Virus record (IMG/VR): IMGVR_UViG_3300026184_000080 | Location: 1 to 21,319 of that record | Strand: one strand, 5' to 3' | DNA from: a virus | Length of the DNA stretch: 21,319 nt | Part shown: in pieces, positions 5,635 through 20,657 of the stretch | How the letters are laid out: every line of letters begins with the position of its first letter | How positions within the stretch are numbered: position 1 is the first letter of the stretch | Made by a program: the position numbers and the translations under genes | Notes under the pieces: model-generated | The model's database searches: none | Told to the model about the DNA's origin: nothing | What the model saw: the letters and a program-made list of their open reading frames with translations, nothing else

Positions 5635-6681
5635 ATGGACAAACCAAAACAGATCTATGGCATAAAGACTCCGAAGGGGGTTTTCGTGTCGATTTTCCGG
5701 TCGGACGAGTATTCTCCATGGGCACCGTTGACCGGATACCTCGTGAACGGGAAGGAGCCAAAGGAGACGTTCGTAAAGAACTGGTCGAAGGTGGACCGTG
5801 ACGTGGTGAAACTCCAGAAGGAAGTGCCACAGCCGTCGATCAACCATCGATTTGAGCTGATAGATAAGTCGATGGAGTCGGAGAAAATCCCAGCCGTGTT
5901 GCCGAGCGAGGAAGCCGGAGAGCACACGATGGACGGTTTCATTTGGAAGCCGGAACTGGCGATGTACGAATCACTATACGAACGGAAGTACGACAAACAG
6001 CCACCACTGATAGTGGGGGTCCCGTTTACGTATGAGCGGATCGCGGAGGTTGAAGAGATCCCGTCCCGGCCGTTCAGCTTTCCGGTAGATCCAGAGACAT
6101 CCCTGTGGGCGGCGACGAAGACAACGGAGATTGGCGAGGAGCGGGTGCGATACTCGATTGTCGAGCGGCTGATGCTCCCGCCTCCTCTGCTCCCGATGGG
6201 GCCGTGTGAGCTCTCCCGGGAGGACAGCTACCGCATAATCCGAGCGCACGTGAAGCGGACAATCTCGGCGGCGGCCGCAATTACCAGCGACTACGATTTC
6301 TGCTTCACGGTCGAGAAGCGGGTATCACTTCCGGAGCCAGAAGAGTACACGGTCGACGTCAACCTCGGGCATAACCTGTTTGCTGCCAAGGGTAGAAAAC
6401 GGAAGCCGAAGTACGAGACGCGCTACCGGAAAACGCGGGACGTGGTAATCTTCGAGATTGCTCCGAAGCCGTACCACGAGTACCCTGTTGTCGAACCGTT
6501 CAAGGGGAAGAATCGGGAAGAGCTCGCGGAGAATATCCAGCGCTACCTCGATGAGCTGATGGAGTTCATAAACGAGCCGGTTGTAGAGTGCTCTACTTGC
6601 CACGGGGCTGGGGTGCTCTTCCGGTATGCATTCGAGAAGAAGCCCGACCGGAAGCGGGAAGAATCTTCCGGAAAGGAGTAA
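5635..6681 (+). CDS. Hypothetical phage protein with C-terminal CxxCxGxG motif
   Basis: ATG 5635 follows GAGGGAGGA at good spacing. The 348-residue protein is soluble and charged, with no signal peptide or membrane helix. Near the C-terminus it has CSTCHGAG, a single CxxCxGxG knuckle like one half of a DnaJ zinc finger; one knuckle alone would need a partner to bind zinc. A very basic stretch (KGRKRKPKYETRYRKTR) lies around residues 250-270 and could contact nucleic acid. I do not recognise a named family. It follows the terminator at 5594-5620 closely and is followed at three bases by the next gene, so the two are probably one unit. Confidence 0.7.
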   Translation: MDKPKQIYGIKTPKGVFVSIFRSDEYSPWAPLTGYLVNGKEPKETFVKNWSKVDRDVVKLQKEVPQPSINHRFELIDKSMESEKIPAVLPSEEAGEHTMDGFIWKPELAMYESLYERKYDKQPPLIVGVPFTYERIAEVEEIPSRPFSFPVDPETSLWAATKTTEIGEERVRYSIVERLMLPPPLLPMGPCELSREDSYRIIRAHVKRTISAAAAITSDYDFCFTVEKRVSLPEPEEYTVDVNLGHNLFAAKGRKRKPKYETRYRKTRDVVIFEIAPKPYHEYPVVEPFKGKNREELAENIQRYLDELMEFINEPVVECSTCHGAGVLFRYAFEKKPDRKREESSGKE

Positions 6682-7021: not shown

Positions 7022-7462
7022 ATGGCAATAGCGACAGTGCAGACGTCAACATGGACTGGGAAGGCGTGCTCGAAGAATAGGTGGCTAAAGGCGCGGGCGT
7101 ACTACGATAAGGTTACCCGGAAGCCAAAGGCGATGATGTACAGCTCGGCGGAGTACAAGCAGTTCCTTGAGGCGCTCGCGATCCAGTTCCGAGTGGACCT
7201 GGAGCCGATAAAGGGTAAGTTCGACATCGCGCTGAAAATGCGTGTCCACCATATGACCGATGATCATAACTTCCTCTTCGCGGTGTTCGATGCTCTTGAG
7301 AGCTCGGGGATAATCGAGAATGACCGTCACGCAGAGCTGAAGATCATCTATCCTCCGGAGCGCCACGGGAACGGAGAGGACGATATCATCCAGGTGTGGA
7401 TAAGAGAGGCGCAGAGTGTCAACGACCCATCGGGGGCCCCGTATAAAGAGGTGCTATGGTGA
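7022..7462 (+). CDS. RusA-like Holliday junction resolvase
   Basis: I choose ATG 7022 because GGAGGT lies just upstream; longer in-frame starts would cross the terminator. The 146-residue product has the RusA arrangement: a β-strand I-A-L-K-M-R-V-H, then M-T-D-D-H-N (79-83, in place of the usual D-x-D-N), F-A-V-F-D-A-L (D90), G-I-I-E-N-D-R (D101) and a closing β-strand. These acidic residues bind the catalytic metals in RusA, which cuts four-way DNA junctions symmetrically. In a phage this helps resolve replication and recombination intermediates before packaging. The first Asp-Asn motif is altered, so activity is likely but not certain. The stop overlaps the next start by seven bases. Confidence 0.78.
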   Translation: MAIATVQTSTWTGKACSKNRWLKARAYYDKVTRKPKAMMYSSAEYKQFLEALAIQFRVDLEPIKGKFDIALKMRVHHMTDDHNFLFAVFDALESSGIIENDRHAELKIIYPPERHGNGEDDIIQVWIREAQSVNDPSGAPYKEVLW

Positions 7463-8268
7463 GTGGGAAGGGGAAGCAGTCTATCGTAATAAGGTGTGAA
7501 GGGTCAGAGCTCGCCGATTACAGGAAGCTGGTAGGGATGCAGGGCGGATTCAAGGCCAGGGGCCCCGAGGATGTTGCCAGGATGGGGAAGTCGATTGTCG
7601 AGTACGGGTTCAGCTTCCCCTTCTTTGTCTGGAAATCACGGAAGCGGCTATATTGCCTCGATGGCCATGGGCGGCTCGAAGCGCTTGCGTACCTGGAGCA
7701 GGAAGGCTACGAGATCCCGCCGGTTCCGATTGCCTTCGTCCACGCGACAAATCTGGAGGAGGCGAAGCAGAAACTTCTGCGCCTCAACTCGCAATACGGG
7801 GAAATAACCCGCGAGGGTCTGCTGGAGTTTACGGAGGGACTCGACGTTGACTGGGGTGCGCTTGTTTTCCCTGGTGGAGCTCTCGATTTGACTGACCCCG
7901 AACAGGCGCTCGCGGAGTACGAGTACTCGAGGAAGATCGAGGCACCCGTCTACAAGCCGAGCGGTCTGAAACCGGAATTGTCGGAGCTCGCGGACACGTT
8001 CAAAACTGATGCGATGATCGAGAGGATTTCTGAGGCGGATCTTCCGGAGGATGTGAAGAAATCCCTCGTGCTTGCCGCTCATCGTCACACTGTTTTCAAT
8101 TACGCGAAGATCGCGGAATACTACGCCCACGCGGAGCCGAGGCTACAGCGACTGATGGAGGAATCAGCGCTTGTGATTATCGATTTCAAGAAAGCGCTTG
8201 AAGCCGGGTTCGTTCGGTTCACCCGCGACATCGATAAACTCTACGTTGAGGATGTGAAGGGTGCGTAA
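7456..8268 (+). CDS. ParB-like nuclease domain protein
   Basis: The 270-residue protein starts at ATG 7456, overlapping the resolvase stop. Its N-terminal half carries a ParB/sulfiredoxin-type fold with the signature DGHGRLEAL (69-77), followed by L-N-S-Q-Y-G-E. The C-terminal half is helical with a conserved-looking A-A-H-R-H…I-A-E-Y-Y-A-H-A segment. Phage proteins of this kind are often beside DNA-modification genes (methylases, TET/JBP enzymes, base glycosyltransferases). Here the next gene is a TET-associated-type glycosyltransferase with an overlapping start. I infer a role in DNA modification or in handling modified DNA; partition is unlikely because no ParA is seen. Confidence 0.75.
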   Translation: MVSGKGKQSIVIRCEGSELADYRKLVGMQGGFKARGPEDVARMGKSIVEYGFSFPFFVWKSRKRLYCLDGHGRLEALAYLEQEGYEIPPVPIAFVHATNLEEAKQKLLRLNSQYGEITREGLLEFTEGLDVDWGALVFPGGALDLTDPEQALAEYEYSRKIEAPVYKPSGLKPELSELADTFKTDAMIERISEADLPEDVKKSLVLAAHRHTVFNYAKIAEYYAHAEPRLQRLMEESALVIIDFKKALEAGFVRFTRDIDKLYVEDVKGA

Positions 8269-9142
8269 GAGATTCTGCGCGATGATCTTGACCCACGGGC
8301 GGGCCGACCGGGTGGTCACGTACAAGACGCTACGCCTGTTCGGGTACACCGGGGATATCGTGCTGGTGATAGATGATGAGGATGAGCAGGCGGACCGTTA
8401 CCGGGAGCTCTATGGGGACCAGGTAGTGCAATTCTGCAAGTCTGATATCGCGAGCCGGTTCGACGAGGCAGATAACTTCTCGGATCGTCGAACGATCTTC
8501 TATGCGCGAAATGCAGCCTTCGAGATAGCGGAAAAACTCGGGTACCAGTACTTCATGCAGCTCGACGACGATTACAACTGGTATCGGTACGTTTTCAATG
8601 AGGACCACGGCTACTGCCGGCAGAAGAAGATACGGAACCTCGACGGGGTTTTCGAGGCGATGATTCGGTACTTCGAGAGGGCCCCGATTGACTGTTTGGC
8701 GATGATCCAGACCGGGGATACTCCAGGCGGCCGGCAGGCGAGCATGGTGGACGCAGTGCGGATGAAGCGGAAGGCGATGAACACGCTCCTGTGCAGTGTG
8801 GATCGAAAGGTCGAGTTCATCGGCCGGATCAATGAGGACGTAACCGCTTATGCCCTGCTCGGCTCTCGCGGCAAGATGTTCCTGAGTGTCAACAACGTAC
8901 AGATCAACCAAGGGGAGACACAGAAAAACAAGGGCGGAATGACGGAGCTCTACGCCTCGAACGGAACCTACGTAAAGAGCTTTTACACCGTGATGCAGTG
9001 CCCATCCTTCGTGAAAATCTCCATGATGGGCACGCACTACCGAAGGCTCCATCACCTGATCGAGTGGAATAGCGCCGTACCAAAGATCCTCCAGGAGAAG
9101 TACCGAAAGCCGGACCTGCAGGGTGAGAAAAAGGGGAAATAG
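8261..9142 (+). CDS. TET-associated-type GT-A glycosyltransferase
   Basis: The frame begins at 8261 (GTG) and overlaps the ParB-like stop. The 293-residue product opens with I-L-T-H-G-R-A-D-R-V-V-T-Y-K-T-L and a V-I-D-D-E-D strand. It continues with Y-A-R-N-A-A-F-E-I-A-E and then QLDDDYNW (DDD 102-104), the metal- and nucleotide-sugar-binding acidic motif of GT-A enzymes. This set resembles the TET-associated glycosyltransferases (TAGT), which are thought to add sugars to hydroxymethylated pyrimidines in phage DNA. No TET/JBP or base methylase is present in the window, so the acceptor is unproven. The ParB neighbour and the packaging genes just downstream fit a DNA-modification role. ATG 8282 is an alternative start. 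Confidence 0.72.
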   Translation: MRKRFCAMILTHGRADRVVTYKTLRLFGYTGDIVLVIDDEDEQADRYRELYGDQVVQFCKSDIASRFDEADNFSDRRTIFYARNAAFEIAEKLGYQYFMQLDDDYNWYRYVFNEDHGYCRQKKIRNLDGVFEAMIRYFERAPIDCLAMIQTGDTPGGRQASMVDAVRMKRKAMNTLLCSVDRKVEFIGRINEDVTAYALLGSRGKMFLSVNNVQINQGETQKNKGGMTELYASNGTYVKSFYTVMQCPSFVKISMMGTHYRRLHHLIEWNSAVPKILQEKYRKPDLQGEKKGK

Positions 9143-9700: not shown

Positions 9701-11069
9701 GCTCATCCAACAGAGCCAGCACTTCTACCGGAAATATCCGATCAATTTCGTTGTGGATATGTTCGGGGTTATGCCCGATCCGCAGCAGCAGGAGCTCTTG
9801 CAGGCGGTTGCTGACGGGGATGCAGTAGCGGCGAAGAGCGGTCACGGAACTGGAAAGACTACGTGCCTGTCGTGGCTGGTGCTGTGGTTCCTGTATTGCT
9901 TCGCAGAGTCGAGAGTCGTTGCCACGGCTCCCACCCAAAGACAGCTGACAGACATCCTCTGGCCCGAAATCTATAAGTGGTTAACCGGATCTCCGCTGGA
10001 GTTTATGATCTACTGGCAGGCGACTCGGGTTGCCGTTGCCGGCAGAGAGGAAACCTGGTTCGCTACACTCAGAACCTCGAACAAGCCGGAGAACATGCAG
10101 GGGTTCCACGCTGAGTACCTGCTCATCCTGGTGGACGAGGCATCCGGCGTTCCGCAGAACACGATGGAGGCGATTGAAGGAGCGCGGACAACGAAGGGGA
10201 GCAAACTGGTTCTGGCTGGTAATGCAACCCAGCTCTCTGGAACGTTCTACGACGCATTTCATCGGCTGCGGGCTTTCTACCGAACGATCACTATGAATGC
10301 TGAGCTCTCCTCCCTGGTGTCGAAGGAGTACTGTGAGCGGATAGCACAGAAATACGGCGAGAGCTCGGACGTTTATCGGGTGCGCGTCAAGGGGGAGTTC
10401 CCGAGCTCCGAACCGGATGTGTTCATACCGCTGAGTAGAGTCGAGGCTGCCGTCATGCGGGAGGGAGTCGCCGAAGGGGGCGAGATTGCGATCGGCTGCG
10501 ACCCGGCTCGGTTCGGGAATGCGGAGAGCGTAATCTATTGGCGCCGTGGGCTGAAGGTGGCGGAGCCGATAACCCTACAGGGGAAGGATACGAGCTGGAC
10601 GACTGGCGAGATCGTGAAACTTGTACGGTGGCTTCGGAGGGAGTACGACTATTCCCCGAAGATCCGAGTCATGGTTGACGATACCGGAGTAGGGGCCGGC
10701 GTGGTCGACCAGTTGGTGCAGCTCGAAGTGGAACTGGAGATCGAGGTCGTGCGGGTAAACTTTGGCGGGCCTGGGAACGAAGAATGTTACGAGACTGCTA
10801 CGTACCTGCTCTGGGGGATCCGAGAGGTTATTGACGAGATCGAGTTGCCGAACGACGATGATACCGTAGCGCAGATATCGACCCGGAAGTACAGGCTCCG
10901 ACCTGACGGGAAGCTGAAGATCGAGTCGAAGGACGAAATGGTCGCTCGGGGGCTGGTCTCTCCGGACCGGGCCGATGCTCTCGGACTTTGCTTTTACCAG
11001 GACTCGAACAGTGTTATAATGACTGACGATATGGCCGCAGCGATGCGGGCGAGAAGGGGGAGAAAATGA
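9666..11069 (+). CDS. terL: Large terminase subunit (DNA-packaging ATPase and nuclease)
   Basis: The 467-residue protein has both terminase domains. In the ATPase part the Walker A is SGHGTGKT (58-65), the ATA-P-T-x-R-Q motif is near 87-92, and the Walker B is LILVDEAS (about 153-160) with the catalytic Glu. The C-terminal RNase H-like nuclease has GCDPARFG (D279), V-M-V-D-D-T-G-V-G (about 336-343) and S-P-D-R-A-D-A-L (D434, D437), the expected metal-binding acids. It cuts concatemers and pumps DNA into the prohead through the portal, which is the next gene (ATGA overlap). The chosen ATG lies inside terS, preceded by CGGGAG; length is normal. Confidence 0.93.
   Translation: MGTAETGIQLPELIQQSQHFYRKYPINFVVDMFGVMPDPQQQELLQAVADGDAVAAKSGHGTGKTTCLSWLVLWFLYCFAESRVVATAPTQRQLTDILWPEIYKWLTGSPLEFMIYWQATRVAVAGREETWFATLRTSNKPENMQGFHAEYLLILVDEASGVPQNTMEAIEGARTTKGSKLVLAGNATQLSGTFYDAFHRLRAFYRTITMNAELSSLVSKEYCERIAQKYGESSDVYRVRVKGEFPSSEPDVFIPLSRVEAAVMREGVAEGGEIAIGCDPARFGNAESVIYWRRGLKVAEPITLQGKDTSWTTGEIVKLVRWLRREYDYSPKIRVMVDDTGVGAGVVDQLVQLEVELEIEVVRVNFGGPGNEECYETATYLLWGIREVIDEIELPNDDDTVAQISTRKYRLRPDGKLKIESKDEMVARGLVSPDRADALGLCFYQDSNSVIMTDDMAAAMRARRGRK
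10993..11020 (+). promoter_or_regulatory. Candidate internal promoter before the portal gene
   Basis: A perfect TATAAT at 11015-11020 follows TTTACC (10993-10998, four of six -35 matches) with a 16-bp spacer. It lies inside the 3' end of terL, so it could be chance coding sequence. It would start transcription about 40 bases before the portal ATG. Confidence 0.35.
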
Positions 11070-12616
11070 GCTGGTTCACTGATACGGCCACCACTGTGAT
11101 GGATTGGCTACAGGGAAGGGGGACGCAAGAAGCCCCCGCGGCAGATCCGATCCACGCGATAACCAGGCGGCCACGGACGATTGACCAGACAGAGTCGTTG
11201 ACGGTGAATGAGGATTTAACCCTGGGGCTCTGGAGGAATAGCTACCAGGGGTTGAAGCTGGGAGGGTCGCTTGCATTTGCGCCGATCTTCATCCCGGTCT
11301 CTCTCATGGGAATCCCAGTACCTACCAGCGAAGACGAACATACCCAAGAGCTGCTTTCTGCGATCATGGAGGAGCGAGCCGTTGACTGTTGGCTGATCCA
11401 TCGGACGGCTCACCGAAATGGGACGTGTTGGATCTGGCCGAAGTACGCACCGCAGACGGGGCTGGTGTGGGAGTTCATCCCGGATGCATCTGTCGTGGAT
11501 ATCGAGAAAGATATCGTGAGCGGCGAGGTGGTAGGGATCAGGACCGACGAGCAGCTGATGATCTCCGTGGGCGAGGCGGATGTTCGGAGCGTCAGAAGGA
11601 AGCGCTACTTCACCCGTGAGAAGCTGACGATAAGATACCTTGCGAGTACCGTGCCGGACCTGCCGGAGTTCGAAGTCTACGCGAACCCCTCCGGAGAGAT
11701 CCCGATTGCATTCGGGAATGACGCAGAGCCAAACGAGACCAGGGGTATTTCGGACTATGCCCGGATACTTCCGGACCTAAAGACTTATCACGACGTAGAT
11801 CAGGCGTGGACGATGATGCTCGCGAGGTTTAAGCCGAAGCTGGTGCTGGGGCTAAAGAATCTAAACAAGTGGCTGGAAAACAACGGCTACGGGACCGTGA
11901 CGGACATCGATGTTGCGAGCGCGGACCTGTTTATTAAGATGGTCGGCGATGAAGAGACTATCGACATCATAAAGCCTCCCGAGACGGCAGCATATGCCGA
12001 GAAGCTGAAACAGACGTTCCACAAGATTGTCGAGGGATCGGGGATACCGGAGATCGTTTGGGGGCTGAAAACCGAAGGGAATCACGCGAGCGCAGAGGAG
12101 CAAATGGGGACGCTGGTACAGTTTGCCCGGGAGAAGCAGGCGCAGAAGAACAAGCCGTATATCCGGCTCTTCGATGCATCCCTTCGGCTGGTTGCGTTGG
12201 CGCGGATGCGAAACCCGCAGCCGTTCGAGGTGACGTGGAATAAGCTGGATGCGGTGAGCGATGCTGTGCGCTCGGAGATCTTCCGGAACTATGCCCAGGG
12301 TATCGGGTACGTGATGCAGTGGGCTGGAATAACCGACCGGCAGCTCCACGCGATCTGGCAGCAAAACTTCCCAGATGCTACTGAAGAGGATTACGAGGAG
12401 TACCGAGCGGCAATGGTAGAGGCTGCGAAGTTCAGGCAGTTCGCGCAGGCGAGTCTGACGGACGCATTCGACGTACAGAGCCCATACGAAGAGGTGATAC
12501 CTCCCGAGCCTCCCGCAGCGGACGCAGGGCCGCAGGGGGGTGGATCTGCTGCGAACGGGCTGCTCGATATACTGGAAATGCTGAAGAAGAAGCAGAACGG
12601 CCACGCTGTGAAGTGA
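11066..12616 (+). CDS. Portal protein
   Basis: The 516-residue protein starts in the ATGA overlap with terL. It has the make-up of an SPP1 gp6-like portal: an N-terminal part with a W-x-x-N-x-Y-Q segment, a W-L-I-H-R-T-A-H-R-N-G-T-C-W region, a central helical wing and I-P-E-I-V-W-G near the clip/stem. A helical C-terminus ends in an acidic, Pro/Ala/Gly-rich tail. Portals form the dodecameric ring at the prohead vertex through which DNA is packaged and ejected, and on which the connector assembles. Gene order (terL before, MuF-type head protein after) supports the call. In most phages MuF follows directly, but here a 3.6-kb cassette separates them. Confidence 0.85.
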   Translation: MSWFTDTATTVMDWLQGRGTQEAPAADPIHAITRRPRTIDQTESLTVNEDLTLGLWRNSYQGLKLGGSLAFAPIFIPVSLMGIPVPTSEDEHTQELLSAIMEERAVDCWLIHRTAHRNGTCWIWPKYAPQTGLVWEFIPDASVVDIEKDIVSGEVVGIRTDEQLMISVGEADVRSVRRKRYFTREKLTIRYLASTVPDLPEFEVYANPSGEIPIAFGNDAEPNETRGISDYARILPDLKTYHDVDQAWTMMLARFKPKLVLGLKNLNKWLENNGYGTVTDIDVASADLFIKMVGDEETIDIIKPPETAAYAEKLKQTFHKIVEGSGIPEIVWGLKTEGNHASAEEQMGTLVQFAREKQAQKNKPYIRLFDASLRLVALARMRNPQPFEVTWNKLDAVSDAVRSEIFRNYAQGIGYVMQWAGITDRQLHAIWQQNFPDATEEDYEEYRAAMVEAAKFRQFAQASLTDAFDVQSPYEEVIPPEPPAADAGPQGGGSAANGLLDILEMLKKKQNGHAVK

Positions 12617-12633: not shown

Positions 12634-12661
12634 AGCGCGAGGCGCTAAAGGAGGATCAATG
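12634..12661 (+). promoter_or_regulatory. Strong ribosome binding site with short hairpin before the cassette
   Basis: AGCGC/GCGCT (12634-12638, 12642-12646) is a small hairpin directly before AAAGGAGG (12647-12654) and ATG 12659. The previous gene ends 42 bases upstream, one of the few uncoupled starts here, and marks the left edge of the sugar-modification cassette. Confidence 0.5.
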
Positions 12662-13450
12662 AAACAATCTGACATTGCGATTATCGGGTACGGGGTCGTC
12701 GGCCGACACATGGGGGAGCTGTTCCCGGAGGCGAGGATCGTTGACCCGTTCTACGCTGGGAAGCGAGATGGGCTGCCGTTTGACTGGGAGGGAGAGAACG
12801 AGTATTCCGTGGCGTTCGTTTGCGTGCCTACAGATAGGTTGCCAGACGGGAGCGCTGATATCTCCCTCGTTGCGGAAGCGATCATAAGGAATCACGCAGA
12901 CATATTCGTTATCAAGAGCGCGATACCTCCGGGGACGGCGGCCAGGGTTGAAGCCGAGACGGGCAAGTGGCTGGTCGTGTCTCCGGAGTTTGTCGGCGCG
13001 ACTCCTCACTCCAAGGGGGCCGATGAGGGCTTCGTGATACTCGGAGGAGATCGTTTGGCAACGGATATGGTGGCGGAGCTCTACAAGGAGCGGAAGAGCG
13101 GGGACTTCAGAATCGTGAAAACCGACGCCTTGACTGCCGAGCTGGTGAAGTACGCCGAGAACGCGTTCTATGCTACGAAGGTCACCTTCTTTGCGGAGTT
13201 CTATCGGTACGCGGAAGCGCTCGGAGTAGACATCGACGAGTTCCGGGAGCTCCTGCTCCTCGACGGGAGGATCGGAAGAAGCCACACGTTCACCTACCGA
13301 GCCCATCCCTATTACGCGAGCCACTGCCTCGACAAGGACCTGCCGGCGATAGTGGTTGCGGCAAGGAAAGCTGGAAGCCCGATGCCTCTACTGGAAGAGG
13401 TGGTCGAGCAGAACCAGATACAGCGCGGGAAAGCGGAGGGTCAGGGATGA
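12659..13450 (+). CDS. Short UDP-glucose/GDP-mannose dehydrogenase-family protein
   Basis: This 263-residue protein has the first two domains of the family. The NAD-binding G-Y-G-V-V-G is at 10-15 and FVCVPT at 53-58; KSAIPPGT (86-93) and SPEF (108-111) follow. A-E-L-V-K-Y-A-E-N-A-F (160-170) has the conserved Lys and Asn. SHCLDKD (221-227) holds C223 in the place of the catalytic Cys of the GxCLPKD motif. The usual C-terminal UDP-binding domain is absent (family length is about 390-450). Full-length enzymes oxidise UDP-glucose to UDP-glucuronate in two NAD-dependent steps. The preserved Cys, Lys and Asn suggest a working but minimal enzyme. The next gene is a glycosyltransferase with an overlapping start, so it may supply its donor. 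Confidence 0.8.
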   Translation: MKQSDIAIIGYGVVGRHMGELFPEARIVDPFYAGKRDGLPFDWEGENEYSVAFVCVPTDRLPDGSADISLVAEAIIRNHADIFVIKSAIPPGTAARVEAETGKWLVVSPEFVGATPHSKGADEGFVILGGDRLATDMVAELYKERKSGDFRIVKTDALTAELVKYAENAFYATKVTFFAEFYRYAEALGVDIDEFRELLLLDGRIGRSHTFTYRAHPYYASHCLDKDLPAIVVAARKAGSPMPLLEEVVEQNQIQRGKAEGQG

Positions 13451-14178
13451 GGGTCGAGACGTTCGCGTTTAACTACCCGTCGCAGCTGAAGAGGCTCGAC
13501 TACCACCGGCTGATAGAGGTATTCGAGTACTCGCTCCACCACCACGTGCCCGATGCTGATATCCGGGCCAGGATAATCGAACCGCCGGATCATCGGGGAG
13601 CGGTCAAGATCCCCTTCCTTTCCAATACGTACAAGCTCGCGTTCTGGGTTGCTGCGGTCGAAGAAGCGTACCTCGATGGTGAAAACCTGATCCTTTCGGA
13701 CTCGGATATGCTCTGCACCGGGAACCCGGAGCCAGTGTTCGAGAGGGAGTTCGATATCGCGTACACCGTCCGGGACGACCATACGAACATCCCGCTGAAC
13801 GGCGGGGTTGTCTATGTGAAGCCCACGGAAGCGGCAAGGAGGTTCATGCAGGAGTGGCTGAAGATCGACGAACGGATGTACGAAGATTGGAATTTCCACC
13901 AGCCGTGGAGGATCAAGTACGCGGGGCAGAACCAGGCCAGCTTCGGGTATCTGCTGGAGAACCCGGTCGAGGGGGTGACGCTGCTGGAGCTCCCGACCCG
14001 GATCTATAATGCGGTCAATACGGACTGGCACCGGATAGGCTCGGACACGGTATTCATTCACATCAAGAGCCAGTTGAGGAAAGCCGTGCTGCGCGGAGAA
14101 CCGCCAACGGGGACGATGCGGCCGGCGATGCTGAAGTGGTACGAAGAGCGAGACCGGGTGGAAGGAGCCGTGCGATGA
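13447..14178 (+). CDS. GT-A fold glycosyltransferase
   Basis: The start overlaps the dehydrogenase stop (ATGA). The 243-residue product contains a K-L-A-F-W-V-A-A-V-E-E-A strand-helix, then LILSDSDMLC, whose DSD (85-87) is a DxD-type metal and nucleotide-sugar site. PLNGGVVYVKP (116-126) follows, a segment typical of GT-A transferases of the GT8 and related sorts, and then an R-R-F-M-Q-E-W helix. Near the end, VFIHIKSQ supplies a His in the place where these enzymes bind the donor. No membrane anchor is present, so it acts in the cytoplasm. The acceptor cannot be told from sequence: DNA base, capsid or tail protein, or host surface glycan. Pairing with a UDP-sugar dehydrogenase points to a uronic-acid donor. 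Confidence 0.75.
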   Translation: MRVETFAFNYPSQLKRLDYHRLIEVFEYSLHHHVPDADIRARIIEPPDHRGAVKIPFLSNTYKLAFWVAAVEEAYLDGENLILSDSDMLCTGNPEPVFEREFDIAYTVRDDHTNIPLNGGVVYVKPTEAARRFMQEWLKIDERMYEDWNFHQPWRIKYAGQNQASFGYLLENPVEGVTLLELPTRIYNAVNTDWHRIGSDTVFIHIKSQLRKAVLRGEPPTGTMRPAMLKWYEERDRVEGAVR

Positions 14179-14429
14179 GCAAGGAAGCGTTCAAGAGAAG
14201 CTGGGACCGCCTGTCTGGGCAGATGGATGAGACCGAAGAGCTGTGCGTCGAGGCGGCCGAGAAGCAGGACCGTGGGGAAGAGCTGACGGAAACGGAGCGA
14301 AGAAGGCTGGAAGCGTGGGACCGGGTTGGCAGAGAGAGGTGGAGAAAGACACCGAGGCTGCTGGCAAAGATTAGGAAGGCTGCGAAGATTGCGGCGCGGA
14401 ATGAAAGGAGGATGCGAGGGAATGGATAA
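14175..14429 (+). CDS. Small charged helical protein
   Basis: ATG 14175 overlaps the glycosyltransferase stop, and the TAA at the end overlaps the next start. The 84-residue product is almost wholly helical by composition. Its first part is acidic and has heptad-like spacing (W-D-R-L-S-G-Q-M-D-E-T-E-E-L), and its C-terminus is strongly basic (LAKIRKAAKIAARNERRMR). A coiled coil and nucleic-acid or partner binding are possible. I recognise no family. Being locked between two enzymes suggests it belongs to the cassette. Confidence 0.6.
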   Translation: MSKEAFKRSWDRLSGQMDETEELCVEAAEKQDRGEELTETERRRLEAWDRVGRERWRKTPRLLAKIRKAAKIAARNERRMRGNG

Positions 14430-15393
14430 ACAGGGTGGAGCTCGGAGACCGAAAACCTTCAGTTCCGATGCAATACGGCGAAATGAGGCGGGGCAGACGC
14501 TTCGGAACTGCTCACCCCACCGGACCATCTGCGAGGTGCTGAGGGAGATCAACGACATGCACCAGGGAGACACGCAGGTGGATCTGGACACCCGGGCGAA
14601 GGTGCGGGAAGCCGTGGACATGGCGAAGCGTATGGATCGAAAGCTGAAGGAGTACAACAAGGAGTACGATGCTGGGTGGTGGGAAGCGAACCCAGACTAC
14701 GAGGCGGATCTTGAGCGTAGGCTGGCGACGGACTACATAGCGATGGACGATGCGGAGATCTCGGACGTTGTCCGGGCTATCCCCTCGATGGGTGGCCGGG
14801 AGATAGGGCGATACCTCCGGGAGTGGGCAGCTGGGGTCCCTGACCATCGGGAGATTGTGGAGCTCGGCGTCTGGCTCGGGGCGGGCACGGCGCAAATGGC
14901 TCTCGGTGTGAAACGGTCGGGAGCGGATGTAATCGTTCACGGGTATGATAGGTTCAGGGCGGGTACGAGCGAAGTGATGAAGGCTCGCAACCAGGGGATC
15001 GAGCTGGAGCACGGGCAGAACACGGAACCTGTGGTCGTTGGGCTGCTGGAATCGGCCGGCGTGATAGATTGCGTCGGGTTGACTATCGGTGAGATCGGAG
15101 ACAGGAAATACCAGGGGTGGCCGATAGGGATGTACGTCGATGATGCGTGCAAGAGAGAGGAGCAATTCCTCCGGGCTCTCCGGCTATTCGGCCCGTACTG
15201 GGTGCCCGAGGAGACGATTGTCGTGCTCATGGATTTCTGGTACTTCGAGCGCAAGCCTGGAGTCAAGGGGCTACGGTTCCAGTATGAATGGATGCAGCAG
15301 CACGCGAGCAGCTTTGATGTGCTCTACGAGAGATTGCCTGGGGTGTCGGCAGCCGCATTTCGGTATGTTGACGGGAAGCCGTGGGAGGAGTAG
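14422..15393 (+). CDS. SAM-dependent methyltransferase with an extra N-terminal helical region
   Basis: The chosen ATG 14422 overlaps the preceding TAA; a longer frame upstream lies inside that gene. Of 323 residues, about 1-115 are a charged helical region (…T-L-R-N-C-S-P-H-R-T-I-C-E-V-L-R-E-I-N-D-M…) of a sort that also occurs as a stand-alone small phage protein. From about 125 a class I methyltransferase domain begins: IVELGVWLGAG is the SAM-binding motif I, and V-H-G-Y-D-R-F ends strand 2 with the acidic residue. M-Y-V-D-D-A-C and V-V-L-M-D-F-W-Y follow. The fold resembles sugar O-methyltransferases of the TylF/Methyltransf_24 type. The substrate is inferred from its neighbours. Confidence 0.65.
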   Translation: MDKQGGARRPKTFSSDAIRRNEAGQTLRNCSPHRTICEVLREINDMHQGDTQVDLDTRAKVREAVDMAKRMDRKLKEYNKEYDAGWWEANPDYEADLERRLATDYIAMDDAEISDVVRAIPSMGGREIGRYLREWAAGVPDHREIVELGVWLGAGTAQMALGVKRSGADVIVHGYDRFRAGTSEVMKARNQGIELEHGQNTEPVVVGLLESAGVIDCVGLTIGEIGDRKYQGWPIGMYVDDACKREEQFLRALRLFGPYWVPEETIVVLMDFWYFERKPGVKGLRFQYEWMQQHASSFDVLYERLPGVSAAAFRYVDGKPWEE

Positions 15394-15399
15394 CGAGGC

Positions 15400-15606
15400 G
15401 TGGGAAAGAACGAGCCGTCGATGTGCAGAGGGAAGATTGGATACGACTCTCCGAGTCGGGCGTGTAAAGCCCGAGATAGGATGAACAAGAGAGGGAGCAA
15501 CAAGGGGGCGATTGACGTATACCGATGCTCGGTCTGTGGGAAGTGGCACCTGGGGCGTAGGCCGCCGGGAATCAAGAAATCAGAGAAGAAGGAGAATGCG
15601 ATATGA
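15400..15606 (+). CDS. Small zinc-knuckle protein
   Basis: GTG 15400 lies nine bases after GGAGGAG, the best-placed start; ATG 15421 is an alternative. The 68-residue product is very basic, with a Cys near the start (MCRGK) and a C-terminal Y-R-C-S-V-C-G-K-W-H-L-G-R segment. This YxCxxCxxWHL pattern is common in tiny phage proteins and may bind zinc with the His and an earlier Cys. It overlaps the second methyltransferase start by four bases. Function unknown; nucleic-acid binding is plausible from its charge. Confidence 0.65.
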   Translation: MGKNEPSMCRGKIGYDSPSRACKARDRMNKRGSNKGAIDVYRCSVCGKWHLGRRPPGIKKSEKKENAI

Positions 15607-16286
15607 AACGGAGAAGGTGGGATGCGATCCTTTCGAGAGTGCCGAATCAGCAGAAGATAGTCGGAGTAGAGGTGGGCGTCTGGGACGGGAAGCTATCGAA
15701 CCGGCTCTTGTCGGCCCGGCAGGAGCTGACGCTCTACATGGTGGACCCCTGGAAGGCAGCGGAGGAAGGATCATCCTTCGCAGAGAGTGGAGCGCAGATG
15801 GCAGAGTACTCGCAGGAGCGGTTCGACCTGTCGAAGGACCGGGCGAAAGAGGTGGCGATGCGTTATGGCCGGCGAGCTCGGATTGTCGAGGCTGATTCGG
15901 TGGAAGCTGCCGGCGAGATCCAGGGTAGGAAGGTGTCTCCAGATTTCGTGTTCATTGACGGGGACCATAGCTACGAAGGGGTGAAGCGGGATCTCGAAGC
16001 GTGGGCTCCGCTGATCGGTAGCGATGCCCTGTTCATAGGCGGCCACGACTACGAGAACAACCACGGAGAGGTGAAGCGGGCGGTCGATGAGTACTTCGGA
16101 GAGGATGCGGTCGAGGTGGATGACGACCATACCTGGTTTGTGAAAGCCGAGAATGTCAGGAAGCGCCGAAAGGCTGCCGTCCAGCGGAAGATGAGCCGAA
16201 AGAGCAGCAAGGAGAGCCAGGAGGATCCAAGGGTGCATGAACGGCCGGAGCCCACCACGGAACCTCCGGAGTCGAGAGAAGAATAG
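15603..16286 (+). CDS. SAM-dependent methyltransferase (Methyltransf_24-like)
   Basis: ATG 15603 overlaps the stop of the zinc-knuckle gene and follows AGAAGGAG. The 227-residue product has a well-formed class I domain: VGVEVGVWDGKLS (motif I), L-Y-M-V-D-P-W (acidic end of strand 2), then DFVFIDGDHSYEGVKRDLEAW. This last is the signature of Methyltransf_24 enzymes, which often methylate sugars or small molecules with a metal held by Asp and His. A GGHDY segment follows, where the family usually has D-D-Y. The last 45 residues are a basic then Pro/Glu-rich disordered tail. Motif I is nearly the same (E-x-G-V-W-x-G) as in the other methyltransferase of this cassette, so the two may be diverged copies. 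Confidence 0.8.
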   Translation: MKRRRWDAILSRVPNQQKIVGVEVGVWDGKLSNRLLSARQELTLYMVDPWKAAEEGSSFAESGAQMAEYSQERFDLSKDRAKEVAMRYGRRARIVEADSVEAAGEIQGRKVSPDFVFIDGDHSYEGVKRDLEAWAPLIGSDALFIGGHDYENNHGEVKRAVDEYFGEDAVEVDDDHTWFVKAENVRKRRKAAVQRKMSRKSSKESQEDPRVHERPEPTTEPPESREE

Positions 16287-16290
16287 CGAA

Positions 16291-17286
16291 ATGACGAACG
16301 CGGAGTTCCATCGGCTTTCTATCCAGGCGAGAAACAGCCTCCCGGATCTCACCAGGCGGATCATGAAGAAGATCAAGAAGGTGTACGAGGAGGCTGCTCG
16401 GAACGTTGCGGAGCAGGTGGCGCTCGCGGATCTCGCGTCTACGTTCGGGGGGCAATCGGAGCTCACAACGGCGAGTCGGGTATCGGTCTACCGGCAGCTC
16501 GAACAGGAAGCGGCGAAGGTGGCTGCGGCGATTGAGGAGAACGGGAAAATAGGGCTCCAAATGGCCGTGGAAAAGATAGGGACTGCTAACGATACGTTTA
16601 TGGCTCAGGCGTTCAATGACGCGGGCATAGCGACGATCTCCCGAGCGGTTATCGCGCAGATAGTGAGCGGGGTGAACACGAAGGTCGTAGAGTCGGTCGT
16701 CAACCGGGTGTGGAGTGACGGGTACAACTTCTCGAAGCGGTGCTGGCTGGCAGGGCAGAGGTTCCAGGATGATATCAAGAATATCCTCTCTACCGGGCTT
16801 GCTGAGGGGAGAGACGTGTTCGATATCGCAAAAGACATCAACATCTATTCCCGTGACGGGAAGGTGAAGCTCTTCCAGCGATGGGATAAGCTGAAGAGAG
16901 GGTCGAAGGAATTTGCGAAACGGGTTCCGAAAAATGTAGATTGGCGGGCGTTGCGGCTGGTACGGACCGAGCTCTACATTTCCCTTCGGGATGCAGGCGT
17001 TCAGTACGGGCTGGCGAACCCGGCGTGTACCCAGGAATGGGACTGGATACGGCAGAGCTCGACTGACTGGGGGTGCTCGTGCCCGGACTATGCGAAGGGA
17101 TCTCCGTACAAGCTGGAGGATCTGCCGTCTACTCCGCACGCGAATTGTCTATGCGCGGTAGTGCCGAGGATGATTCCTCGGGAGCAGTTCCAGGAGCAGC
17201 TGAAATCCTGGGCACGCGGAGAGAGCCAGCCGGGGATTCAGAAGTGGTTCGAGGACTACTACCTCCCAAGCGAGCGGGCCGCATGA
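16291..17286 (+). CDS. MuF-type minor head protein
   Basis: I choose ATG 16291, just after the previous stop; an in-frame ATG at 16237 would overlap the methyltransferase tail. The 331-residue protein is helical in its first 210 residues. It ends in a Mu gpF-like domain: R-L-V-R-T-E (222-227), A-G-V-Q-Y-G, W-D-W, G-C-S-C-P-D-Y (261-267) and P-H-A-N-C-L-C (282-288), the Cys/His pattern that closes the domain and may bind zinc. MuF proteins sit in the prohead near the portal and are needed for head assembly or DNA ejection. Position before protease, scaffold and capsid is canonical apart from the inserted cassette upstream. Confidence 0.85.
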   Translation: MTNAEFHRLSIQARNSLPDLTRRIMKKIKKVYEEAARNVAEQVALADLASTFGGQSELTTASRVSVYRQLEQEAAKVAAAIEENGKIGLQMAVEKIGTANDTFMAQAFNDAGIATISRAVIAQIVSGVNTKVVESVVNRVWSDGYNFSKRCWLAGQRFQDDIKNILSTGLAEGRDVFDIAKDINIYSRDGKVKLFQRWDKLKRGSKEFAKRVPKNVDWRALRLVRTELYISLRDAGVQYGLANPACTQEWDWIRQSSTDWGCSCPDYAKGSPYKLEDLPSTPHANCLCAVVPRMIPREQFQEQLKSWARGESQPGIQKWFEDYYLPSERAA

Positions 17287-17489
17287 GTGGGTTGACGGAA
17301 CGGCAAACGGAGGTGCTGGAGTTCATCCGGGCTTTCTCGGAGGGGAACGGCTACGCCCCCTCGGTGCGGGAGCTCTCGATCCAATTCGAGATCAGTCTAA
17401 ATGCTGTGCAGTGCCACCTGGAAGCCCTGGAGAAAAAGGGAGCTATTCACCGAACGAACGGCGTAGCCCGGTCGATTGTGGTGCAGTAA
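17283..17489 (+). CDS. LexA-type DNA-binding domain, no peptidase
   Basis: ATG 17283 overlaps the MuF stop. The 68-residue product is a complete LexA N-terminal winged helix: L-T-E-R-Q-T-E-V-L-E-F-I-R, then G-Y-A-P-S-V-R-E-L, and a recognition helix I-S-L-N-A-V-Q-C-H-L-E-A-L-E-K-K-G. S38, N40 and A41 match the Ser, Asn and Ala that E. coli LexA uses to read CTGT; its two following Glu are replaced by Q43 and C44. The dimerising, self-cleaving peptidase half is missing, so RecA cannot inactivate it by the usual route. An SOS-box-like site and a promoter lie directly downstream, so it probably controls the capsid genes or competes with host LexA there. Confidence 0.82.
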   Translation: MSGLTERQTEVLEFIRAFSEGNGYAPSVRELSIQFEISLNAVQCHLEALEKKGAIHRTNGVARSIVVQ

Positions 17490-17549: not shown

Positions 17550-19004
17550 ATGGTCCAGAATAAAGCCAGTTCCGATAAGATCTTCAATTTCCGGTACATC
17601 CACAATCGAGATGCTGCTCTCCCTGTAGGAGAGGTGCCGACCCTGGTCCCGAACACCGTGATGAATGAGCTCACGGCTGGGGATAGCGCACCCTACTTCC
17701 GGGTAGAGTCGATTGCGTTTCCAGCGGAAGGCGACAATCCCTTCGGCTCGAAACCCGCGATCTACAATCAGCAGTTTTTCCAGTCAGTTCTCGACTACCT
17801 CAAAAATAAGCCCATGCCGGGTAGCAAGCGCGGCCACGAGTACAAGAGCAGGCCGGCGAGTGACTTCTACACCGTGGGCGGAAAGATCGTTGAGAATGGG
17901 GACGGAACCGGAACGGTTAACCTGAAAATCTATATCCCTCCGACCGGAGACGAAACCAGTAATGCGGGCTTCGTCCGGGATAACAAGGCGGGGATTGTCG
18001 AGTTCAGCATCGAGGCCTATGCGGAGTTTACTGTCAACGGGGATACCGGAGACGTAACCGTGATCTCGGTGAAAGGGAACCCGCGTAATGATGCGGTGCC
18101 CGAAGGCGCGATGGCCCAGACGGTGAACGCAGCGAACCGGGACGATGAGGACCTGGTATTGAATGCGGCCGGCGACAAGCTGCTGGCTGCATCTGTGCGG
18201 AAGGCTCGCGGGCTGATAAATGCGGGGAAGTATGACGCGAAGGCGTCTTGGTCGAAGAAATCCGCGTTGCGGAAGATCCTCGGTGCGAACGGGGATGATT
18301 ACACGAACCTGAAGGCGTGGTCACTCGTGGAGCACACTGGTGCTCCGGAGAACACCCAGGGGAGATACGGCTACCAGTACGGAGACGGGACGTTAGTGTA
18401 TCGGTCTGCGTTGCAGAACATTGCATCGAGGGCTTCTGCACAGAACCTCCCGGACGTGAGCAAGGCCGCATCTGACTTGGTTGATCTCATCCACGAGAAG
18501 AGTAACGCCAAGAACGAAAGGAGTCTGGTTGTGGAAAAAGACGAAGTCATGGAGTTTTTGACCGTCAACTCTGCAATTCCTATCGAGGATATTGCGAAGG
18601 TCATGCGGCAGGACGGAAAGATCGTCACCCCTGAGCACCTGGAGGCAGTGAAAACTGTGAACGGGCTCAAGGAGCTGGGGATCAAAGATCCTGTCACGGA
18701 GGTCCGGGAAATGCAAAAGCAGATCGCCGACTCCGAGAAGGATCGCGTTGCGAATCGGCTCAATGCCGAGTTCGGGACCGAGAAGGATGCGACCGGGAAG
18801 GAGAACCCGCTCCGGATCTATGCCGGGCAGATGATCACCAACTCGGCGGATCTCGATAAGCAGATCGAGACTTTCCGGGAGAACCCGATTGCGAAGAAGC
18901 TGGCAGCGGAGCGTGCGGACTTCTCGCGCAACTCCCTGAAGGTTGTCGAAAACGGCGGCGGTGAGCGTCAGGAAGAGGGCGCGCCGGTTGTGGCCGAATA
19001 CTAA
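17550..19004 (+). CDS. Prohead protease fused to scaffold
   Basis: Of 484 residues, about 45-190 look like a prohead maturation protease: Y-F-R-V-E-S-I-A-F near the start, G-H-E-Y-K-S-R-P (H96), and V-E-F-S-I-E-A-Y (S153) as the likely His and Ser of the catalytic site. A domain at about 220-315 (SWSK…LVEHTGAPENTQGRYGYQY…VYRSALQNIASRA) resembles the W-S…peT…Y-x-Y-P…R-A-A-Q region found attached to many phage proteases. The rest, rich in Lys and Glu, is coiled-coil-like scaffold. The scaffold fills the prohead and is then degraded by the protease. ATG 17550 has no close Shine-Dalgarno and lies a few bases from the predicted transcript start; ATG 17661 is a possible alternative. Confidence 0.75.
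   Translation: MVQNKASSDKIFNFRYIHNRDAALPVGEVPTLVPNTVMNELTAGDSAPYFRVESIAFPAEGDNPFGSKPAIYNQQFFQSVLDYLKNKPMPGSKRGHEYKSRPASDFYTVGGKIVENGDGTGTVNLKIYIPPTGDETSNAGFVRDNKAGIVEFSIEAYAEFTVNGDTGDVTVISVKGNPRNDAVPEGAMAQTVNAANRDDEDLVLNAAGDKLLAASVRKARGLINAGKYDAKASWSKKSALRKILGANGDDYTNLKAWSLVEHTGAPENTQGRYGYQYGDGTLVYRSALQNIASRASAQNLPDVSKAASDLVDLIHEKSNAKNERSLVVEKDEVMEFLTVNSAIPIEDIAKVMRQDGKIVTPEHLEAVKTVNGLKELGIKDPVTEVREMQKQIADSEKDRVANRLNAEFGTEKDATGKENPLRIYAGQMITNSADLDKQIETFRENPIAKKLAAERADFSRNSLKVVENGGGERQEEGAPVVAEY
18531..19004 (+). CDS. Nested in-frame scaffold protein
   Basis: Inside the protease gene a perfect AAAGGAG (18517-18523) stands seven bases before an in-frame GTG at 18531 (residue 328). Starting there would give a 157-residue protein that is the whole scaffold part, V-E-K-D-E-V-M-E-F-L onward, with charged helices typical of scaffolds. 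Nested scaffolds made from an internal start in the protease gene are known, for example lambda Nu3 in gene C. It would allow more scaffold than protease. The evidence is the ribosome binding site and its position exactly at the domain border. Confidence 0.6.
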   Translation: MEKDEVMEFLTVNSAIPIEDIAKVMRQDGKIVTPEHLEAVKTVNGLKELGIKDPVTEVREMQKQIADSEKDRVANRLNAEFGTEKDATGKENPLRIYAGQMITNSADLDKQIETFRENPIAKKLAAERADFSRNSLKVVENGGGERQEEGAPVVAEY

Positions 19005-19018
19005 GGGAGGGCTGAAAG

Positions 19019-19423
19019 ATGGCAGCGCTTAACAGTGTCTACATAGAGAAGCCGAACGGCCCGTCGATTCGGGCAGCGAACAGCACCGGGGCGATTCTCT
19101 ACGAGAATGAGTTCACGGTACTCGGTGCGGGGACCAAGGGAATCCCTGCGGTAGCGAACGAGCAAATCGGGATTGCCGCAATTGGTGGGTTCGACGTCGA
19201 GCCGTATAAGCTGGTTCAGGCCAGCGATCTGACGGCCGGCGAGAACACGTTCGGAACGGTCAACCAGCCGGTGTATTTCAACCCGGCGACGGGTGCGTTC
19301 TCGGACACCGCGACGGTCGGGTATTACCTGGTTGGAATCCTCGCAGAGGCGAAGAGCTCGGCGGGAGTAATCAAGTTTTTCGTTCTCCCCGTGGCGGATG
19401 AGATCGAGAGCGACGAGACGTAA
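19019..19423 (+). CDS. Capsid decoration protein, DUF2190-like
   Basis: ATG 19019 follows AGGGAGGGC at suitable spacing. The 134-residue product is β-rich and rich in Gly and Ala, with a run of short strands: E-F-T-V-L-G, I-G-I-A-A-I-G-G-F-D-V, Q-P-V-Y-F-N-P-A-T-G, Y-Y-L-V-G-I-L-A and I-K-F-F-V-L-P. This is the pattern of DUF2190 and lambda D-like head proteins that bind the outside of the expanded shell and stabilise it. Its position between scaffold and major capsid gene is the usual place. The acidic tail is not part of the fold. Confidence 0.72.
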   Translation: MAALNSVYIEKPNGPSIRAANSTGAILYENEFTVLGAGTKGIPAVANEQIGIAAIGGFDVEPYKLVQASDLTAGENTFGTVNQPVYFNPATGAFSDTATVGYYLVGILAEAKSSAGVIKFFVLPVADEIESDET

Positions 19424-19442: not shown

Positions 19443-20657
19443 ATGGTTGAGACTGTAATCAATGCACGAACGCTCGCCGAGCGTCTCGCGAAAGAGAAGG
19501 TTGCTAACACCGTCCGGATCTACCGGGGCGATGCAAGGCATAACCTTGAGGCCAAGGAGTACGAGTCCTTCGGAAACGACATCATCGTCAAGGCGGCGAA
19601 CGCACGGTACGCAGGAACGGACGGAGAGGCGAGGCTCTGGAACGAGATTCACCTGCTGAAGCAGAGGATCGAGAACGCCGCGCAGGCCCCAAGCCAGACT
19701 GACCTGGAGGCGCTGATCGGGAAGATGTTCATCGACATCACCAGGCGCTACCAGGAGAAAGGCGATCTTACTGGGATAATCGCGCAGGAGCTGAACGATC
19801 CGAACTTCCCGAAATCGGTGAACCTCCAGGATTTCTACAAGTACGTAGGAAAGTTTGGGGTGATCCAGGGGAACGGGGACGCGGTCCCGTTGGTGCAGCA
19901 GCTGCTCGGAGAGACCGCGAGCGTCACGATGGCGATCCGTGGTATCGGCTGGGCGACCACCCTGGCGAACCTCCTGTACAACTCCACGTTCACGCAGCAG
20001 AAGGTGAACGATGCCGTTGCCGAGGCGTATGTGGACATGCGGAATGCTCGGGTAATCGGGCAGATCGTTGCGGCCACCTACGTAGCTACCCAGAAGGTCA
20101 GCTTCGTTGCGGACTCGAACGAGACCTACGACGAGAACCTGTACAACGCGTTCCGGTGGGGGATCAAGAAGCTCCGGAAGCTGAAGGACAACATCACGAC
20201 CCGACCGATAAGCACCACGGCGGGGATCGTCTGCCTGTGCAACAGCCAGGATACCTGGGACATCATGCGTGTGATCAACGGTGCGCTCGCGGCGGGCGGA
20301 GGTGCACGGGGCTACAACCGGCAGGCGCTCCCGATCAACCAGGTGGTTGAGTACGATCAGGGCGCGACGGACGGGTTCACCTTCGGGAAGGAAACGCTCA
20401 GCTTCCCTGGAGTCACCCAAGGGTATGCGTACCTTCTGGTACCGAACTACGCCTACGTGCTGAACAAGCGCGGGCTCACGCTCGAAACCGGGATGGGGAG
20501 TGCGTTGTCGCTCTCGCAGGAAGAGCGCGCATGGTACTCGGTGCAGACCGAGTTCCTTCGGGATCTTCTGGGTTCGTCCTACTCCTCTCCGCCTTCGGGC
20601 CACGAGGCCGGTTATGGAGCGATCGTGGAGATCGTGCTCCCGACCGACGAGACCTAA
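19443..20657 (+). CDS. Major capsid protein
   Basis: ATG 19443 follows GGGAGG about a dozen bases upstream. The 404-residue protein has an N-terminal helical segment (about 1-100), which may act as a scaffold-like delta domain removed by the protease. The remainder is mixed α/β and includes a long N-I-T-T-R-P-I-S-T-T-A-G-I-V-C-L-C-N strand region and a β-rich end (E-I-V-L-P-T). This is consistent with an HK97-fold shell protein. No short motif defines the family. The call rests on size, on position after protease-scaffold and decoration genes, and on the strong terminator directly behind it, which is common after highly expressed capsid genes. Confidence 0.75.
   Translation: MVETVINARTLAERLAKEKVANTVRIYRGDARHNLEAKEYESFGNDIIVKAANARYAGTDGEARLWNEIHLLKQRIENAAQAPSQTDLEALIGKMFIDITRRYQEKGDLTGIIAQELNDPNFPKSVNLQDFYKYVGKFGVIQGNGDAVPLVQQLLGETASVTMAIRGIGWATTLANLLYNSTFTQQKVNDAVAEAYVDMRNARVIGQIVAATYVATQKVSFVADSNETYDENLYNAFRWGIKKLRKLKDNITTRPISTTAGIVCLCNSQDTWDIMRVINGALAAGGGARGYNRQALPINQVVEYDQGATDGFTFGKETLSFPGVTQGYAYLLVPNYAYVLNKRGLTLETGMGSALSLSQEERAWYSVQTEFLRDLLGSSYSSPPSGHEAGYGAIVEIVLPTDET

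Follow-up and report, generated by a model that had tools for sequence, protein, structure and literature searches.

We examined a window of 21,319 bases, the whole stretch of virus record IMGVR_UViG_3300026184_000080 and probably a fragment, with attention to a cassette of sugar-related genes at 12659-16286. It consists of the following six genes:

12659..13450, plus strand: UGD, a minimal UDP-glucose/GDP-mannose dehydrogenase homologue of 263 aa
13447..14178, plus strand: GT, a GT-A glycosyltransferase (PF03407) of 243 aa
14175..14429, plus strand: a small helical basic protein of 84 aa, followed by our own profile search and without a database family
14422..15393, plus strand: MT1, a divergent sugar-type O-methyltransferase with an N-terminal helical domain, 323 aa
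15400..15606, plus strand: a small protein of 68 aa with a CxxC...H (Cys/His) motif and a GTG start
15603..16286, plus strand: MT2, of the Methyltransf_24 family, a likely sugar O-methyltransferase

An earlier note on this DNA had described six stacked genes opened by a strong ribosome binding site and placed between portal and MuF genes, and this layout was recovered in full. All open reading frames (ORFs) are present, with stop/start overlaps of the ATGA type at 13447, 14175 and 15603; the MT1 start codon lies within the helical-protein gene, and the sole gap in the cassette, of 6 bases, is found ahead of the Cys/His-motif gene. A AAAGGAGG ribosome binding site lies upstream of the UGD ATG, and the portal and MuF flanks were recognised both in the window and in related phages.

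The enzyme classes, previously assigned by motif, were borne out by family searches above curated cut-offs for UGD (PF00984, 1.5e-18; also phrog_9148), GT (PF03407, 6.6e-9) and MT2 (PF13578, 1.4e-15, 58.5 bits), while the assignment of MT1 is supported by its fold. Loss of active-site residues in homologues was looked for, and the residues were found to be retained in UGD, GT and MT2. In alignments, UGD keeps G10xG12xxG15, K164, N168, C223, K226 and D227 (6 homologues for the motif and the K, N and C residues), and it matches PDB 3gg2, also a UGD, at 6e-30 with the Cys and KD residues aligned. It comprises the NAD-binding and central domains only, and the 3gg2 alignment ends at residue 302 of 450. 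The DxD motif of GT (D85/D87) is invariant across 32 homologues. Structure prediction was run for GT and MT1. The AF2 model of GT (pLDDT 95.0) adopts a GT-A fold, and its top PDB match is the major-capsid glycosyltransferase of chlorovirus PBCV-1 (E 1.7e-8, TM 0.56-0.68).

Against PF13578, MT1 scores 15.8 bits, under the cut-off of 26.3, and it matches phrog_2675 at 1.7e-7. Its catalytic part is well modelled as a sugar O-methyltransferase-like fold, with MeT1, SpnH, MycF and NovP as the closest folds, all of them methyltransferases acting on sugars, and D240, D241 and D271 are invariant in the alignment. The N-terminal domain (RTICEVLREIND...) is helical and poorly modelled. MT2 matches MeT1 (PDB 6g7d) at 0.0011, and its motifs IDGDH and GGHDY are kept in relatives with small changes; judged by family and motifs, it is likely to be a sugar O-methyltransferase. 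Homologues of MT2 are labelled 'DNA methyltransferase' in phrog_2675 and in several cyanophage records (15603-16286; L013:3986-4540). As the family evidence favours a sugar O-methyltransferase, this label is probably wrong.

Of the two small proteins, the one with the Cys/His motif had been called a zinc-knuckle protein. The CxxC...H motif is indeed conserved in the related records G001 and G002, but no curated zinc-finger family scored over its cut-off; the protein matches phrog_15216 (1.1e-6), a PHROG without assigned function. In G001 and G002, GT is followed by a homologue of the helical protein; in G004 the homologue adjoins UGD. Membrane prediction returned a single borderline stretch in MT1 and no strong segment elsewhere in the cassette.

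Next, we asked how the cassette is arranged in other phages. Single-sequence searches of viral contigs gave no match for UGD and one locus for GT, so that profiles were required; profile searches with UGD, GT and MuF, combined with profile-guided gene calling, yielded 26 related records. The identical six-gene order, portal-UGD-GT-helical protein-MT1-Cys/His-MT2-MuF, was found in G002, and G001 has the same order minus MT1 and plus one small ORF ahead of MuF. Core-enzyme protein identity between the window and these two is about 55-68%. The recurrence of this order in two further contigs makes it more than chance. Homologues of GT occur in 25 of the 26 records, of MT2 in 22, of the likely major capsid protein (MCP) in 22 and of UGD in 17. 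Most of the records share a head module made of portal, MuF, a protease-like gene, a cement-like protein, MCP and the next gene. Toolkit genes lie directly between these head genes in at least four slots (before portal, between portal and MuF, between MuF and the protease-like gene, and between MCP and the next gene); two records, G007 and G014, have them upstream of TerL. A search based on MuF, and thus blind to the sugar genes, returned a head-module GT in 8 of 13 contigs; the remaining 5 are short fragments that do not span every slot, so that all 8 judgeable contigs carry GT. The earlier note's virion-side reading, drawn from head-module placement, was thus upheld: in almost every related phage the homologues keep company with genes of the head.

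The module of the window itself comprises the following genes:

11066..12616, plus strand: portal protein, left flank (PF06381 2e-6, under cut-off; phrog_146 5e-4; synteny in relatives)
16291..17286, plus strand: MuF-like head morphogenesis protein, right flank (phrog_1657 1.9e-46; relatives' N-termini)
17550..19004, plus strand: conserved head-module gene, putatively protease/scaffold-like, from synteny with the 19019 gene and MCP in relatives
19019..19423, plus strand: cement/decoration protein (PF09956 Phage_cement_2, 7.9e-5, 23.4 bits, just under the 24-bit cut-off)
19443..20657, plus strand: likely MCP, from position and conservation in 22 of 26 records

Pfam and PHROG support for the portal is weak and the identity of MuF is clear. 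Pfam searches gave no match for the 17550..19004 protein or for the MCP candidate at 19443..20657. The MuF start is probably at 16291, because the N-terminus beginning there (MTNAEF...) matches that of relatives; an in-frame upstream ATG at 16237 was set aside.

Both the position and the content of the island vary. UGD is on its own in the portal-MuF slot in G003, G011 and G023, lies downstream of the next gene after MCP in G005 and G008, and is far from head genes in G004. In G006 (G006:C1:11759-12502), the UGD frame contains one internal TAG, which would mark a decayed gene, a sequencing error or recoding. The minimal UGD family is found in bacterial chromosomes as well. A Treponema contig (L138:8294-12212) carries ParB, a minimal UGD and more enzyme-like ORFs consecutively, a ParB-linked UGD like that of Quhwahvirus (L011); one ORF in this row resembles a family-8 glycosyltransferase by eye. 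Other chemistry is present in further islands: APS kinase (9.5e-42) beside a putative sulfotransferase that scores under its Pfam cut-off in G017, PEP mutase/CTP transferase (1e-58) in G004 together with a TPP enzyme and a protein of the LicD family, TupA-like ATP-grasp proteins in G021 and G025, and a GT2 enzyme in G020; a third methyltransferase is also among the relatives' island genes. A motif-based reading of ST2, a 205-aa protein in G002, as a sulfotransferase was dropped, as Pfam gives no support. Scanning of the relatives' island genes with Pfam returned no flippase or polymerase match. The RTICEVLREINDLHQ domain is N-terminal in MT1 (window 14422-14790), C-terminal in G022 and a stand-alone 84-aa gene in G013, with other copies at L117:6645-7517, L032:10433-10687, L073:670-939 and L045:13044-13328. 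By this distribution, it appears to be a partner domain that moves between proteins; Pfam has no name for it.

Pairwise divergences of portal, MuF and MCP were correlated among themselves (rho 0.44-0.65, with 0 of 500 permutations as high), and the divergence of GT was uncorrelated with that of MuF or MCP (rho −0.09 and 0.08). MT2 correlated weakly with MuF, UGD tracked MuF and not MCP, and GT and MT2 were weakly correlated with each other (rho 0.31, 2 of 500 shuffles as high). The GT pattern would fit either island exchange or rapid diversification, as would be expected if the surface chemistry is exchanged or diversified.

Starting from these enzyme families with intact motifs, the GT and MT1 folds, the head-module linkage and the variable content and position, we propose with a probability of roughly 0.6 that the cassette puts sugar on a protein of the virion, most likely one at the head surface, and represents a virion-glycan island with exchangeable chemistry. 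The substrate of UGD would be a nucleotide sugar, in the simplest case UDP-glucose, which it would oxidise to UDP-glucuronate. The soluble GT-A enzyme would then move the sugar onto a head protein, or onto a sugar that the protein already bears, around the time of particle assembly, and MT2 and MT1 would place O-methyl groups on it, with the helical and Cys/His-motif proteins as possible accessories. The cement protein (19019..19423) and MCP (19443..20657) are the candidate glycan acceptors, and the absence of a strong membrane segment or a flippase/polymerase fits a cytosolic acceptor. The island itself would be a variable slot, into which sulfation, phosphonate/LicD or TupA-type chemistry is swapped and whose position shifts while its association with head genes is retained. 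The donor sugar, the order of steps, the acceptor and the function, namely shielding or altering the particle surface, are those that we infer. More tentatively, and short of even odds in our estimate, these phages may form an uncultured family with an exchangeable head-module glycan locus whose logic resembles that of bacterial O-antigen loci, in which a conserved GT/O-methyltransferase core, together with uronate, sulfate, phosphonate and TupA-type modules that replace one another, would diversify the particle surface independently of the head proteins.

Several observations weigh against decoration of the virion by this cassette. All 26 records come from metagenomes, as contigs of unmeasured completeness. 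Many small genes lie between head genes in the related phages, so that tolerance of insertions at these sites could by itself account for the position. The match of GT to the PBCV-1 enzyme is a likeness at the level of the GT-A superfamily (11-13% identity). With glycogenin, LgtC and others almost as good as fold matches, the model shows a fold and not an acceptor. A tblastn search with GT against 50,697 annotated phage records, Che8 included, gave no match; GT would thus 'work like' known virion glycosyltransferases without being a member of them by descent. In the divergence test, one best-scoring GT copy per contig was used, and the choice of paralogue may blur the result. Finally, UGD is absent in 9 of 26 records, and a Pfam search of its 263 aa gave no match to the C-terminal UDP-binding domain. 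The step from UDP-sugar to UDP-uronate claimed in the earlier note therefore keeps the intact catalytic residues in its favour, but without that domain UDP-uronate production is not secured. The claim of one pathway fared similarly. The set is conserved and its active sites are kept, but it is not fixed, as UGD is absent from those 9 records and MT1 from G001, with sulfate or phosphonate enzymes elsewhere. Single or scattered genes, which the note had held would speak against it, were found for UGD and MT1 and not for the GT/MT2 core.

As cassettes of this kind could also act on other targets, we weighed DNA, the host surface and no joint target at all. The window contains a further glycosyltransferase that had been overlooked:

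8261..9142, plus strand: TAGT-family glycosyltransferase (PF20691 6.1e-34, phrog_842 2.7e-70), adjoining a ParB-like gene at 7456-8268

In T6-like phages, TAGT is credited with the transfer of the second glucose to modified cytosine (PMC13390438), and Bacillus phage SP-15 has phosphoglucuronate in its DNA and a modification cluster with UDP-glucose dehydrogenase (PMC5977210). A sugar, perhaps a UGD-made uronate, could thus be put on modified bases by TAGT, possibly with the cassette GT, and then be methylated. MT1, UGD, ParB and TAGT are close to each other in G007, and ParB, a weakly TAGT-like glycosyltransferase and a short UGD are consecutive in Quhwahvirus (L011). DNA hypermodification by the cassette is nevertheless unlikely in our judgement. 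TAGT is found in 2 of 26 toolkit records, the second case being G007, and its absence from the other 24 weakens this explanation. The cassette GT is outside the TAGT family, and the cassette genes accompany head genes, not replication genes. Thymidylate synthase/hydroxymethylase (PF00303) was found in 0 of 26 records with positive controls, all records being fragments; the corresponding search for TET/JBP (PF12851) was uninformative, as its control was silent. Separately from the cassette, the TAGT gene may itself act on DNA.

The enzyme classes concerned (UGD, O-methyltransferases, LicD and TupA) also serve bacterial cell-surface polysaccharides. Together with the bacterial members of the minimal UGD family, this would suit enzymes that alter a host polysaccharide, for example in superinfection block or serotype change. 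We regard such a role as distinctly unlikely, as the cassette has no strong membrane-spanning or flippase-like protein and its genes lie inside the head run, presumably expressed late and thus late for exclusion. Genome-contig scans gave no relative for GT, and of 56 loci found with UGD none had at least two head-module families. The varying position and content, with UGD and MT1 often separate or missing, could instead reflect insertion-tolerant gaps between head genes that gather assorted small-molecule enzymes without joint function. This explanation appears very unlikely, given that almost every record has the GT/MT2 core, that GT and MT2 show the weak correlation in divergence described above, and that the pairings are chemically sensible (APS kinase with the putative sulfotransferase, PEP mutase/CTP transferase with LicD).

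Decoration of the virion also has precedents. Mycobacteriophage-type examples come from Corndog, in which an O-methyltransferase, two glycosyltransferases and a putative N-acetylglucosaminyltransferase lie between portal and protease, and for which the authors of its description suggested that the capsid is modified with methyl groups and glycans (PMC4351075). In the passages of PMC12363180 and PMC11256854 that relay Freeman et al. 2023, glycosylated capsid/tail proteins are reported in Che8 (cluster F), Corndog (cluster O) and Myrna. The window resembles Corndog, by its described gene order, in having phage-encoded glycosyltransferases and an O-methyltransferase amid virion structure genes. 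It differs from Corndog, Che8 and Myrna in UGD, the second methyltransferase, the relatives' sulfate and phosphonate enzymes and the use of several head slots; the Che8 glycosyltransferase genes lie at the right genome end, unlike the head-module island here. The earlier statement that no described system has this set was accordingly too strong. With the Corndog precedent, the cassette would be a variation on already described phage virion glycosylation, with added chemistry and several slots, and not an unprecedented system. In PBCV-1, A064R fuses two glycosyltransferases and a methyltransferase for the major capsid protein glycan (PMC7019647). Like the cassette, this virus uses GT-A glycosyltransferases and a methyltransferase, there building a methylated capsid N-glycan, and it supplies the closest solved fold to GT; unlike the cassette, it is a eukaryotic virus with a fused three-domain protein and an unrelated capsid. 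The SP-15 cluster (PMC5977210) likewise pairs a phage UDP-glucose dehydrogenase with glycosyltransferases, but acts on DNA with a hydroxymethyldeoxyuridine synthase, none of which was found here. As for the T-even-like TAGT (PF20691, PMC13390438), the window has such a gene as well, but apart from the cassette and missing in most relatives.

As far as the literature examined goes, sugar coats of phage particles have been shown mainly in a few mycobacteriophages, and a limited literature search gave no paper in which the head module of a phage has UGD, sulfation or phosphonate genes. If our proposal is true and many environmental phages carry a head-linked sugar locus of variable chemistry, particle surface chemistry would be a trait selected in its own right, and such loci would supply candidate sulfating, phosphonate-adding and methylating enzymes acting on capsid proteins. 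The proposal also raises the question of selection for particle sugars where no animal immune system is involved.

Three further genes of the window were observed. An isolated LexA DNA-binding domain (PF01726, 4.2e-21) is encoded at 17283-17489 inside the head module; in G001 the domain belongs to a longer ORF of 244 aa (L002:4756-5487), with a C-terminal half that looks HNH-like by eye. A transglycosylase SLT-domain protein (1476-1928; PF01464, 5.5e-14) lies near the left end of the window, distant from visible tail genes. The protein encoded at 5635-6681 strongly matches the Gabija anti-defence protein Gad1 (PF25705, 3.2e-79).

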